A stretch of 37,397 nt of DNA from a virus. Where the stretch lies: positions 1 to 37,397 of IMG/VR virus record IMGVR_UViG_3300033571_016342; one strand, given 5' to 3'. The notes beneath the pieces were generated by a model. The model did not search any database and was not told the origin of the DNA. It saw only the letters and a program-made list of their open reading frames with translations. Shown one piece after another: positions 1,465-19,256 of the stretch (its first letter is position 1; each line of letters starts with the position of its first letter). The position numbers and the translations under genes are program-made.

Positions 1465-2163
1465 TTAGACTCTGTATTTCTTTCTATAATCGCTTACTGA
1501 AAGTGGTGAGCCTGCATCCGTGCCATAAGTAGTAGGACGCAATTGGGATAATGGGGCATTCGCAACTCGAGCTTTTGTGGCATCTTCATTTTCCTTTATA
1601 GATTGAGATAGCCTTTTAACGTGTTCTAAAGCATCTTCAGGACTTTGACTTGATAGCATTTCTAATTGCATTAGACCTAATCGATTTTTTCCAAGCTCAT
1701 ATAAAACATCGCCTGCGTTATCAACGGCTTCAGCTAAAAGATGGACGACATTAGGGAATTTTTCGATTCTAATGTTGCCTGCAACTTGGTCAAAATCTTC
1801 GTACTTAGATTTACCGGACTCAATTTTTTTCATGTAAGTATCAACAATTTTTTGCGCGTACTCTGTTTCGCTTTTTTGTCGAGCTTCTTGAATCCATTCA
1901 TCTCTTAAGCGTTGAGCTTCTTCAGCAGCAATTCGTCTAAAGTCATTAGAATCTTGAGTGATTTGTTGTGGTTGTGATTGGGCTTGTTGCTCTTGTCGTC
2001 TTTTGTAAGACTCAATAGCGTCATGCTTTGCTCGCCCCACAATTTCATTTAACTCTGATTGACGAAACAAGCGTTCGTCAGACCTTGACGTGTCATTACT
2101 TTCACTTTGAGTCGGCGTAACCTCAGAAACGCCTTGCTCTAATCCTTGAGCCATATTTTCCAT
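1465..2163 (-). CDS. Scaffolding protein, P22 gp8-like
   Basis: A 232-aa highly charged, helix-rich protein with a Gln-rich stretch (about 57-70). Residues 31-50 (RLFRQSELNEIVGRAKHDAI) resemble the start of phage scaffolds of the P22/podovirus type, and the C-terminus is basic (DYRKKYRV), as expected for the coat-binding helix-turn-helix of P22 gp8. P22 gp8 is longer (303 aa). The gene sits immediately upstream of coat. The start at 2163 is preceded by AAGGA, which lies in a perfect hairpin loop (see 2167..2179); an internal ATG at codon 4 is less well spaced. It assembles procapsids and would be absent from mature virions. Confidence 0.85.
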   Translation of the reverse strand: MENMAQGLEQGVSEVTPTQSESNDTSRSDERLFRQSELNEIVGRAKHDAIESYKRRQEQQAQSQPQQITQDSNDFRRIAAEEAQRLRDEWIQEARQKSETEYAQKIVDTYMKKIESGKSKYEDFDQVAGNIRIEKFPNVVHLLAEAVDNAGDVLYELGKNRLGLMQLEMLSSQSPEDALEHVKRLSQSIKENEDATKARVANAPLSQLRPTTYGTDAGSPLSVSDYRKKYRV

Positions 2164-2166
2164 ATT

Positions 2167-2179
2167 GCAAATCCTTTGC
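2167..2179 (-). promoter_or_regulatory. SD-in-loop hairpin of scaffold gene
   Basis: Minus strand GCAAA-GGA-TTTGC: a perfect 5-bp stem with the Shine-Dalgarno GGA in the loop, ending 3 bases before the scaffold ATG at 2163. One member of the hairpin family described in the findings; candidate translational operator for a CsrA-type protein. Confidence 0.6.
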
Positions 2180-2291
2180 TATTAACCCTGCTACGGTATC
2201 TCTATAAAAGAGGCCAACGCCTAACGAACGAGTCTCGGCATATTTTTAAGTCGCATGCTTGACTTAGCTATTAACCCCGCTACGGTAATCG
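2179..2291. repeat. Direct repeat pair in scaffold leader
   Basis: GCTATTAACCCTGCTACGGT at about 2179-2198 recurs as GCTATTAACCCCGCTACGGT at about 2269-2288, one mismatch in 20, about 90 bases apart. Both lie in the gene-free stretch upstream of scaffold. They would be in the scaffold leader if transcription enters from the right. Function unknown. Confidence 0.7.
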
Positions 2292-2331
2292 GATTTAAAA
2301 TCCGCTCTGCCTATTTGGAACTAGGAGGCAC
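2290..2331. promoter_or_regulatory. Structured element upstream of scaffold
   Basis: A 15-base near-palindrome CGGATTTAAAATCCG (2290-2304; 7-base arms around one A) is followed by TGCCT...AGGCA (2308-2312 with 2326-2330), which can enclose or compete with CCTA/TAGG. In RNA this would be two adjacent hairpins at the far end of the scaffold leader. It looks faintly tRNA-like but no tRNA can be folded from it. Role unknown. Confidence 0.4.
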
Positions 2332-2380
2332 CAAGGCATTAAGTTAAATATAAATCTAAAATTACAAGTTGATTTATTTT

Positions 2381-2420
2381 TTATTAACTTTTATATTATT
2401 TTATTAACTTTTATTAACTT
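2381..2420 (+). promoter_or_regulatory. Triple TTATTAACTT repeat (candidate operator)
   Basis: The 10-base word TTATTAACTT occurs at 2381-2390, 2401-2410 and 2411-2420, the last two tandem, directly upstream of the AlpA-like gene at 2433. The 10/20-base spacing puts the copies on one face of the helix, as expected for an autoregulatory site of a small HTH protein. No clear -35/-10 was found, so promoter position is uncertain. Confidence 0.5.
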
Positions 2421-2432: not shown

Positions 2433-2630
2433 ATGATAGAAATTAATGGGAAACACTATATAACTGAAAAAGAAGCCAGTAAAAAATATGGCTATTCTGT
2501 GCCATGGTTTAGGTTGTCTAGAAAGCAAAATGATGCCCCACCTTTTTGCCGACTTCGGGAAAATGGTAAAATTCTTTACTCAATTGAAGAAACAGACAAA
2601 TGGTTTCAAAATAGATTCAATATGAGATAA
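2433..2630 (+). CDS. AlpA/excisionase-like HTH DNA-binding protein
   Basis: A 65-aa protein with the HTH_17/MerR-like plan of AlpA and phage excisionase-type proteins: YITEKEASKKYGYSVPWFRL forms the helix-turn-helix, then a beta-hairpin wing (CRLRENGKILYSIEE) and a terminal WF. Such proteins act as small transcription regulators or recombination directionality factors. It is on the plus strand, isolated inside the minus-strand late region, next to its own TTATTAACTT repeats and upstream of the large repeat field 2830-3150, so it may bind these. No integrase is present for it to assist. Start supported by AAGGA. Confidence 0.7.
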   Translation: MIEINGKHYITEKEASKKYGYSVPWFRLSRKQNDAPPFCRLRENGKILYSIEETDKWFQNRFNMR

Positions 2631-2779
2631 ATATTATAAATTGGTATATAAATTTAATATACAAATTTTGATCAATTATTAAGTAAACATTAAGTAAAAA
2701 TTTTTTTCGTCTAATAACCTTGCGTTTTGTATTTACGTTTGCACAAAATGATTATACAGTGTGCTAAAAAATGGCTTAA

Positions 2780-2803
2780 GTCTGATTATCTTGTTAATCA
2801 GAC
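2780..2803. repeat. Perfect 9-bp inverted repeat
   Basis: GTCTGATTA (2780-2788) pairs with TAATCAGAC (2795-2803) around a 6-base loop. Outer AAG/CTT can extend it with one bulge. No T-run follows, so a plain terminator for the AlpA-like gene is doubtful. It could be a protein-binding dyad. Confidence 0.55.
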
Positions 2804-2830
2804 CTTTAGAAAATAAATAATTATACGACT

Positions 2831-2872
2831 CATGTCTTGCATGTCTTGATGTCTTGATGTCTTGATGTCTTG
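2831..2872. repeat. Five tandem ATGTCTTG units
   Basis: CATGTCTTG, CATGTCTTG, ATGTCTTG, ATGTCTTG, ATGTCTTG run head to tail (unit 8-9 bases) and directly precede the 11-base array. The period is not a multiple of three and no reading frame covers it. Confidence 0.85.
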
Positions 2873-2899
2873 ATATCGGTTGACAACTTTCCAGAAAAC

Positions 2900-3030
2900 T
2901 CATCGAACTCTCGTCGAAAGCTCGTCAGATATTCGTCAAACATTCGTCAAGCTTTCGGCTAGTCTTCATCGACTATTCGACTAGTACTCGTCGAGTTTGT
3001 CAAAGTTTGTCAGAAGGCTTGTCAGAAAAT
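2900..3030. repeat. 11-base periodic TCGTCA/TCGTCG array (about 12 units)
   Basis: TCATCG or TCGTCG/TCGTCA-type words begin at 2900, 2911, 2922, 2933, 2944, 2955 (TCGG), 2966, 2977 (TCGACT) and 2988, exactly 11 bases apart, then continue as TGTCA words at about 2998, 3008 and 3020. Consensus is roughly TCGTCRAANNT. One helical turn per unit would put every site on the same DNA face. Confidence 0.8.
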
Positions 3031-3046
3031 TTCCCGTTTCTCGACG

Positions 3047-3103
3047 GAAAAAAATAAATCGCGCTCGCGAAAAAAATAAATCGCTTTTGTATAAAAAATA
3101 AAT
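3047..3103. repeat. Phased A-tracts with TAAATCGC
   Basis: GAAAAAAATAAATCGC occurs at 3047-3062 and 3069-3084, 22 bases apart (two turns), with a third degenerate A6TAAAT at about 3093-3103. TCGCG/CGCGA (3059-3070) forms a small dyad between the first two. Phased A-tracts normally bend DNA. Confidence 0.7.
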
Positions 3104-3120
3104 TTTACAAATTGCAAGGT

Positions 3121-3149
3121 AAGGCGCAAACAAAACGTTTAAGGCGCAA
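3121..3149. repeat. AAGGCGCAA pair
   Basis: AAGGCGCAA at 3121-3129 and 3141-3149, 20 bases apart, ending the repeat field before the 59-aa gene. Confidence 0.6.
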
Positions 3150-3264
3150 GCTTTTTTTTAAATTGGTCAAATATTGTTTATAAGAAAAAAGATAGCAAGC
3201 AAATCCTTGCAAAATTAACAAATCTGCCCCACATAATAATTGAACTAAAAATAGGAGAGCTAAT

Positions 3265-3444
3265 ATGGATATTAAAAAATTAGAAGAGAGAGCACAAGAG
3301 TTAACTCAGCAAATCGAGCAATCAGCAGCTAATCATCATGGTTTGTTAGGAAGACTTACGGAATTACAGCATGTAATTAACCTTATACAAAAAAGTTCTG
3401 AAGAAAAAAAAGAAACGGAAATTCTTGCAAGTAATTGCAGTTAA
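3265..3444 (+). CDS. Small helical/coiled-coil protein, unknown function
   Basis: A 59-aa frame starting MDIKKLEERAQELTQQIEQS and ending ILASNCS, almost entirely predicted helix with heptad-like Leu/Ile spacing (L6, L13, I17, L28, L31, L34, V37, I41). AGGAG lies 8 bases before the ATG and a textbook terminator (3510) follows, so it is a well-delimited plus-strand transcription unit. Not recognised. Similar short helical proteins occur as phage accessory or RNA/DNA-associated factors, but nothing here decides. Together with the AlpA-like gene it brackets the repeat field. Confidence 0.65.
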   Translation: MDIKKLEERAQELTQQIEQSAANHHGLLGRLTELQHVINLIQKSSEEKKETEILASNCS

Positions 3445-14498: not shown

Positions 14499-15479
14499 CT
14501 AAGGTACCTTAAAAACGATTTTAAGGTTATTTTTTAATATATTTTCTAACTTCTGTGGCAAATTTCCAAAATTGGAGTTATTTTTTTTCTGTTCTTCGAT
14601 ATAGGCTTTCATTTTTTTGTCATGTTTCTCTCGTGCTAATTTTTCATGTAGTTCTTTATCAAACGCTGGTTCATTAGTTTCTTGTGGTTTAGTTTCTTGT
14701 TTTTTAATGTTTTCATCAATAACAGGGGCATCATTCCAGCGTTCACCTCGCAAAAAGGTATCTGGATCTGGTGGATAACCATTTAGCCAACGGTGACAAT
14801 TCTTTTTTAAATTCTCTAGTCCTTGGGTAATTTCTTCGTATTTTTCCCATAATCGATTTTTTTTCCAAATGTCATTAGCTCGTATTTTCTTTCTTTTCCT
14901 TGGATATGCTAACCAAAATAAATTAAATAAATCTGTTATTTCATTATTGGTCAAACTTGATTTGACCTTAATATTATTATTTATATCTTTATTATATTCT
15001 TTTATATATGGGTGATGCTGGCGACATGGGGGGGGTGATGCTGGCATCATGGGGGGGGTGATGCTGGCATCATGGGGGGGGGTGATGGAAACTTCATCTT
15101 TTGTGGATAACTTTTCAGAATCCTTTGTGCACTTAGTCTTTGAAGGTTTGTTTTTTGTTTCAGGATTGTTTATTATGGTTTTAGAATCAGATTTCCTCAC
15201 CCATAAAATAATCCTTTTTTCGTTATGGTTTTCTCTTTTTATGTACCCATATTTTTCTAATAATGCTAATTTAACTTGCACATTTCTAACTTCAATTCGT
15301 GCAAGTTCTGAAAGAAATTTGTTGCTGGTAAAAATTGTTTTATCTTGTGTATATAAATTATGAAAGTAAGTCGCCAGTGCTATTGATGGCCAATCTAAAC
15401 GTTTGTCTTCTAATAAAAATCTTTGAGTCATTAAGTATTCTAAGTTACCTAATTCTTTTTTTTCATTATTGTTTTGCAT
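14499..15479 (-). CDS. Lambda O-like replication initiator
   Basis: 326 aa. The N-terminal winged-helix domain (about 15-100: DWPSIALATYFHNLYTQDKT... VRNVQVKLALLEKYGYIKR) is typical of phage replication initiators. A low-complexity Pro/Met/His linker (about 132-158) is encoded by the iterons. The C-terminal domain has FWLAYPRKRKKIRANDIWKK and the L.NGYPPDPDTFLRGERWNDAP motif common in O-like proteins and phage primosome parts. It would bind iterons and recruit the P-like loader and host DnaB. The linker frame is set by runs of 8-9 C, so slippage would disrupt the gene. Start ATG 15479. Confidence 0.8.
   Translation of the reverse strand: MQNNNEKKELGNLEYLMTQRFLLEDKRLDWPSIALATYFHNLYTQDKTIFTSNKFLSELARIEVRNVQVKLALLEKYGYIKRENHNEKRIILWVRKSDSKTIINNPETKNKPSKTKCTKDSEKLSTKDEVSITPPHDASITPPMMPASPPPCRQHHPYIKEYNKDINNNIKVKSSLTNNEITDLFNLFWLAYPRKRKKIRANDIWKKNRLWEKYEEITQGLENLKKNCHRWLNGYPPDPDTFLRGERWNDAPVIDENIKKQETKPQETNEPAFDKELHEKLAREKHDKKMKAYIEEQKKNNSNFGNLPQKLENILKNNLKIVFKVP
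14949..15110. other. Candidate replication origin (lambda-ori-like)
   Basis: Inside the O-like gene, in gene direction: a perfect DnaA box TTATCCACA (15110-15102), three to four dyad iterons (15083-15013), a roughly 43-base A/T-only-like stretch (15009-14967) that could unwind, then the inverted repeat GGTCAAA/TTTGACC (14949-14967). Lambda ori has the same order: iterons, AT-rich region, palindrome, all within O. Confidence 0.7.
15010..15088. repeat. Dyad iterons with G-runs
   Basis: Plus strand: TGATGCTGGCATCA at 15036-15049 and 15059-15072, a variant TGATGCTGGCGACA at 15013-15026 and a half copy TGATGG at 15083. Spacing is 23, 23 and 24 bases. Each full copy is a 6-bp dyad (TGATGC/GCATCA around TG). 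Copies are separated by G8, G8 and G9 runs. Confidence 0.9.
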
Positions 15480-19210: not shown

Positions 19211-19256
19211 ACCCGCCAAGCCTCTTAACAATGCTCAAATCGTGCGGGTATTTTTT
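19211..19256 (+). terminator. Probable terminator of the recombination operon
   Basis: ACCCGC (19211-19216) and GCGGGT (19244-19249) pair over a long 27-base loop, then ATTTTTT. The loop is large for an intrinsic terminator, hence moderate confidence, but the position after ssb and before convergent genes fits. Confidence 0.5.

Follow-up and report, generated by a model that had tools for sequence, protein, structure and literature searches.

A degenerate 11-bp repeat array in the accessory slot of a virus with P22-type head genes may be an iteron-like site

The repeat field described here lies in a non-coding slot and is built around nine degenerate 11-bp units that keep an exact register. 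We read it, at a probability of about 0.45, as an iteron-like, initiator-type binding array that serves as an ectopic second origin or as a decoy. We imagine that an initiator, or a related winged-helix protein, would coat these direct repeats, spaced one helical turn apart, with A/T-rich DNA flanking them. The replication gene of the virus contains an origin of its own, which is why the site is taken to be an extra one; as cargo of an accessory slot, it would work as a second origin or else titrate an initiator, and as a second site it would serve an initiator different from that of the virus. An earlier note on this DNA had listed several possible roles. Among them, the second origin is the one favored by our analysis, because arrays with the same core and the same period in other viruses are mostly initiator iterons, and partition, coating by the neighboring helix-turn-helix (HTH) protein, and DNA bending fared poorly.

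Composition and setting of the repeat field

The window, meaning the whole stretch of DNA analyzed, comprises 37,397 bases, an entire IMG/VR virus record, and has no end repeats. The minus strand carries head genes of the P22 kind; they include an Sf6-like small terminase, the large terminase, a P22-type portal, the scaffold gene (1465-2163, minus strand), and, adjoining the latter, a capsid candidate of 438 amino acids (115-1431) whose identity comes from gene order. RecE/RecT, SSB, RusA, lysozyme, and replication-initiation genes were also found. As a separate observation, an abiF RNA (RF03085, 58 bits, 19212-19249, plus strand) adjoins the SSB gene and a 94-aa open reading frame (ORF). Assignment of a host by prophage search was dropped: three metagenome-assembled genome (MAG) contigs matched, with their phyla in conflict. 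The features in and around the field are as follows.

2379..2420, no strand: direct repeats of 10 bp, TTTTATTAAC, ahead of the HTH gene
2433..2630, plus strand: AlpA/Xis-like HTH gene, 65 aa; in relatives it is always antiparallel to the late genes and immediately before the scaffold gene
2631..3264, no strand: non-coding gap of 634 bp, the largest in the window; a variable accessory slot from the HTH gene to the next small ORF
2780..2803, no strand: perfect 9-bp inverted repeat GTCTGATTA-TCTTGT-TAATCAGAC, which forms a hairpin in computed folds
2832..2874, no strand: five ATGTCTTG words in 8-bp tandem (starts 2832, 2841, 2849, 2857, 2865)
2900..2998, no strand: iteron-like array of nine degenerate 11-bp units, core TCGTC(A/G), register exact
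2997..3024, no strand: three extra TTGTCA units at 10- and 12-bp spacing (starts 2997, 3007, 3019)
3048..3103, no strand: AAAAAATAAAT tracts every 22 bp, an A/T-rich flank (A7 at 3048 and 3070, third AAAAAATAAAT at 3093)
3121..3149, no strand: two AAGGCGCAA words, 20 bp apart (starts 3121, 3141)
3265..3444, plus strand: small ORF of 59 aa without a family match, which closes the slot

Much of what the earlier note had seen in the letters was borne out: the five 8-base units, the two A7 tracts 22 bases apart (to which a third tract can be added), the AAGGCGCAA pair, and the non-coding nature of the field, since the small frames within the gap are not gene-like. The central array needs restating. 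The note had counted about 12 TCGTCA or TCGTCG words, nine of them at an exact 11-base period. The nine-unit register holds, whereas the words themselves are degenerate (in order, TCATCG, TCGTCG, TCGTCA, TCGTCA, TCGTCA, TCGGCT, TCATCG, TCGACT, and TCGTCG), so that only five exact words are present in the field. Direct repeats at a constant, helix-related spacing, as in an iteron origin, are nevertheless plain. The period-11 autocorrelation over 2876-2999 reaches a z of 7.6 against 1,000 dinucleotide-preserving shuffles, among which the highest value was 4.4. No other periodicity in the window is as strong; the next is a 23-bp repeat in the replication gene. The 8-bp, 11-bp, and 22-bp parts of the field are three distinct sequences rather than one.

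The note had also proposed a curved DNA structure. Strong bending is not supported; in a dinucleotide wedge model, the predicted curvature is ordinary, with 6%, 17%, and 28% of genome positions bending more strongly over 63, 105, and 147 bp, respectively. The stability of the DNA is more uneven. The A-tract repeats on one side could aid unwinding, and the 3040-3180 region is moderately unstable, not exceptionally so; on the other side, 2631-2830 includes some of the genome's least stable DNA, in the bottom 0.1% of 50-bp stretches by stability. GC skew shows no turn at 2.9 kb. A similarity search of the field against phages and plasmids returned short, chance-level matches only, ATGTCTTG arrays were seen at three unrelated and uninformative loci, and a literature search for 11-bp iterons in phages found nothing direct.

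Arrays of the same kind and the virus's own origin

Support for an initiator-type array comes from other viruses. IMG/VR was scanned for TCGTC(N6)x4, four TCGTC cores with an 11-bp period, and 104 other viral stretches were found. By profile, the array lay within a replication-initiator gene at 52 of the 104 loci, compared to 1 of 409 positions drawn at random from these loci, the initiator profiles having been built from the array-bearing genes themselves. Independently, PHROGs assigned the sampled array-bearing genes, apart from one without a match, either to replication initiation proteins (phrog_1408, 2149, 16167, and 270) or to DnaD-like helicase loaders (phrog_2514 and 186). The reversed core CTGCT, used as a control, gave 67 loci, with 22 of the 67 in initiator genes (Fisher P of 0.03 versus 52/104). 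Given that the control arrays also fall in initiator genes, the TCGTC core itself adds little specificity. By sequence association, the rule is a general one: phage arrays of degenerate 11-bp units tend to be initiator iterons, with TCGTC as one frequent version.

Not all such arrays are within genes. About 18 further loci carry non-coding TCGTCAA arrays with 7- or 11-bp spacing, adjoining A/T-rich runs; among the four that were mapped, some sit at a boundary between leftward and rightward genes. Those at L160, L182, L220, and L223 resemble the field in core, in 7/11-bp spacing, and in having an A/T-rich neighbor. Some of the non-coding arrays, such as that at L143, are at a junction of opposite genes near recombination-type genes, while the field is inside a late-gene region. 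On direct inspection, the TCGTCAA/CAG form places TGA stops on the complementary strand, and the in-gene arrays use TCGTCGA, which fits the former being a non-coding form of this type of site. Any function of these non-coding arrays is putative, as is that of the field.

The virus appears to have its main origin elsewhere, and the elements on which this likely assignment rests are these.

14499..15479, minus strand: replication-initiation gene, phrog_270
15010..15087, no strand: 23-bp dyad iterons TGATGC-TG-GCATCA, within the replication gene
15102..15110, minus strand: perfect-match DnaA box TTATCCACA, next to the 23-bp iterons

The same design recurs in relatives, with four GTGTCACCATGACAC-type iterons after TTATCCACA in L054 and iterons at 22-23 bp in G013, G014, and G017. 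Searches of viral contigs found no relatives of the replication protein itself or of its 116-aa neighbor, and the former gave three partial matches in the full relatives. The 23-bp motif differs from that of the field, and a DnaA box (TTWTNCACA) is found beside the 23-bp iterons instead of near the field.

Compared to the iteron origins of phage initiator genes, such as lambda O (ori-lambda) or the DnaD-like genes, the field shares evenly spaced direct repeats and nearby A/T-rich DNA. It differs in being non-coding, degenerate, and 11.5 kb from the initiator gene, with no initiator adjoining, and in belonging to a virus with a separate canonical origin. No cognate initiator overlaps the field or lies beside it, the initiator at 14499-15479 having its own, different iterons. 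We identified no gene in the window as the binder, and no iteron clusters outside the field marked such a gene's promoter. The core and period, the non-coding position, the A/T-tract repeats on one side, and the very unstable DNA on the other argue for an initiator-type array, and the origin elsewhere, the degeneracy of the units, the absence from relatives, and the lack of a skew turn argue against it.

Relatives, the variable slot, and other readings of the field

Searches with portal and capsid turned up 135 loci in addition to that of the window; of these 135, 82 contain homologues of the HTH gene (54 distinct). Behind this gene is a slot that varies. In about 20 relatives, the HTH stop codon is roughly 40 to 60 bp from a convergent late gene; in other relatives, the slot spans 0.2 to 1.8 kb, with genes that differ and are often accessory ORFs (L025, L034, L037, L043, L108, L127, and others). 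In the closest relative, L003 (portal 87% and HTH 59% identical), a small ORF occupies the place of the field. The earlier note had made conservation of the period in relatives a test of its own reading, and the period is not conserved; the field is absent from the loci, from 35 records by pattern search, and from 20 near-complete genomes searched for any periodicity. This absence from all sampled relatives argues that the field is cargo of this virus within the variable slot. As a separate observation, L052 has repeats of the TAATG/GTAATGTAATG type before its portal gene, at about 2561 and 3381.

A field unique to one virus, made of degenerate units, in a slot whose content turns over fast, might also be a neutral remnant: a fragment of an origin, or a minisatellite, gained in the accessory slot and now decaying without function. 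We consider this unlikely, as 634 bp of non-coding DNA is a lot for a compact phage to keep, and the register stays exact across nine units despite their differences in sequence.

A structured, non-coding plus-strand RNA spanning some 400 nt (about 2760-3165) is a decidedly unlikely alternative. The plus-strand fold has a z of -4.45, with an outer helix that closes the structure, which ends in a weak terminator-like GGC-GCAA-GC and T8. However, sub-pieces of it are mostly non-significant, known iteron arrays fold with equally strong z values, no Rfam covariance model matches over the field, no notable plus-strand promoter was found in the region, and the field is without homologues for covariation.

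The earlier note had pointed to the neighboring HTH gene as a possible source of a protein that binds the field, in the manner of a plasmid maintenance locus. We regard it as very unlikely that the field is a partition or maintenance site, or an operator, which the 2433 protein or one of the window's other AlpA-like proteins would coat. The R1 parC centromere, the partner of ParR, does have 11-bp direct repeats like those of the field; this virus has no ParM/ParR-type genes among the proteins scanned. More broadly, about 40 scanned proteins gave no match to a partition NTPase of the ParA, ParM, or TubZ type or its adaptor (ParABS, ParMRC, TubZRC), so that the partition site is left unsupported, and no integrase was found among the window proteins scanned. 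The 2433 product is a short HTH protein of the excisionase/AlpA kind (phrog_66, E of 9e-4; HTH_17 and DUF1233 weakly; 42-sequence alignment), and the window has two other AlpA-like ORFs. Winged-helix proteins of this type, such as RdfS and BldC, line up head to tail along DNA and coat it with about one molecule in each turn (PMC11963761).

The note was right that the HTH gene has repeats of its own, but their period is 10 bp, not the 11 bp of the field. In the 120 bp upstream of the gene in 45 diverse relatives, z is 9.0 at 10, 6.6 at 20, 5.1 at 30, and 0.5 at 11, and the repeated sequence varies between relatives. A 10-bp period fits winged-helix autoregulation as in RdfS and BldC (PMC11963761), and the repeats at 2379-2420 are a probable auto-operator of the HTH protein. 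This protein does not appear to be the obvious binder of the field, because the field differs from the 10-bp repeats in both period and sequence. Binding of the field by it is further weakened by the relatives that have the HTH gene without the field and by the TCGTC arrays elsewhere, where HTH genes were not seen as companions.

Finally, a transcription-factor operator, with a PhoB/OmpR-type array (7-bp units, 11-bp period) at 2900-3024 and a separate 8-bp operator over a minus-strand -10 TATAAT at about 2820, is the least probable reading; the TTGTCA units resemble the pho-box half-site and an AAGACA-16-TATAAT match is present on the minus strand (2847-2820), but a dozen copies is more than such a promoter would carry, the array is followed by no -10, and promoter-like matches occur at chance (6 found, 5.5 expected).

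A conserved scaffold leader and the meaning of the field

As a side result of the comparison, the scaffold gene proved to have a leader (about 2167-2344, minus strand) that is conserved as an RNA in all relatives examined. In most of them, this RNA consists of two tandem modules and ends at the scaffold ribosome-binding site, each module having a short covarying hairpin after CGAGAC and an H-type pseudoknot (ACCGTNGCGGGG..AATAGC). Across 46 sequences, 93.2% of cells pair versus 81.4% when shuffled, with changes on both sides in 7 of 8 pairs, and covariation is 0.406 versus 0.177 (equaled by 0 of 500 shuffles; slid controls stayed at or below 0.147); across 31 tandem sequences and 17 pairs it is 0.480 versus 0.229 (0 of 500 shuffles), the pseudoknot pairs having been picked by eye from the same alignments, so that both controls are biased toward the model. 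The model matches the window and nearly all full relatives, in each case checked at a scaffold leader. Collection-wide, each of the 19 pattern matches precedes a scaffold gene, whose product in one case is no more than 28% identical, and the RNA has no match in Rfam.

The scaffold protein of P22 regulates its own synthesis, and the obvious guess is thus that the leader is a candidate translational operator for the scaffold protein. A metabolite-binding, riboswitch-like element is another candidate. This leader is probably more interesting than the repeat field itself.

For the iteron-like array, the effect of binding could also be directed outward. Ectopic copies of the lambda origin block lambda replication (PMC4488673; PMC3349717), and in that system initiator-binding repeats without an initiator can titrate the initiator, which would be how a decoy works. 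Those copies were plasmid constructs, and the field is a candidate for a natural decoy carried by a phage. One can envision, as a long shot, that the initiator-less array titrates or handcuffs the initiators of competing phages, satellites, or plasmids with TCGTC iterons, and so serves in superinfection exclusion. If true, the precedent of the ectopic lambda origins suggests that this would be a DNA-only weapon between replicons. Should the array bind an initiator, this would make it an origin-type site apart from any cognate initiator, kept in an accessory slot. As a working rule, degenerate 11-bp arrays often flag replication-initiator genes, and this may help in finding origins in uncultured phages.
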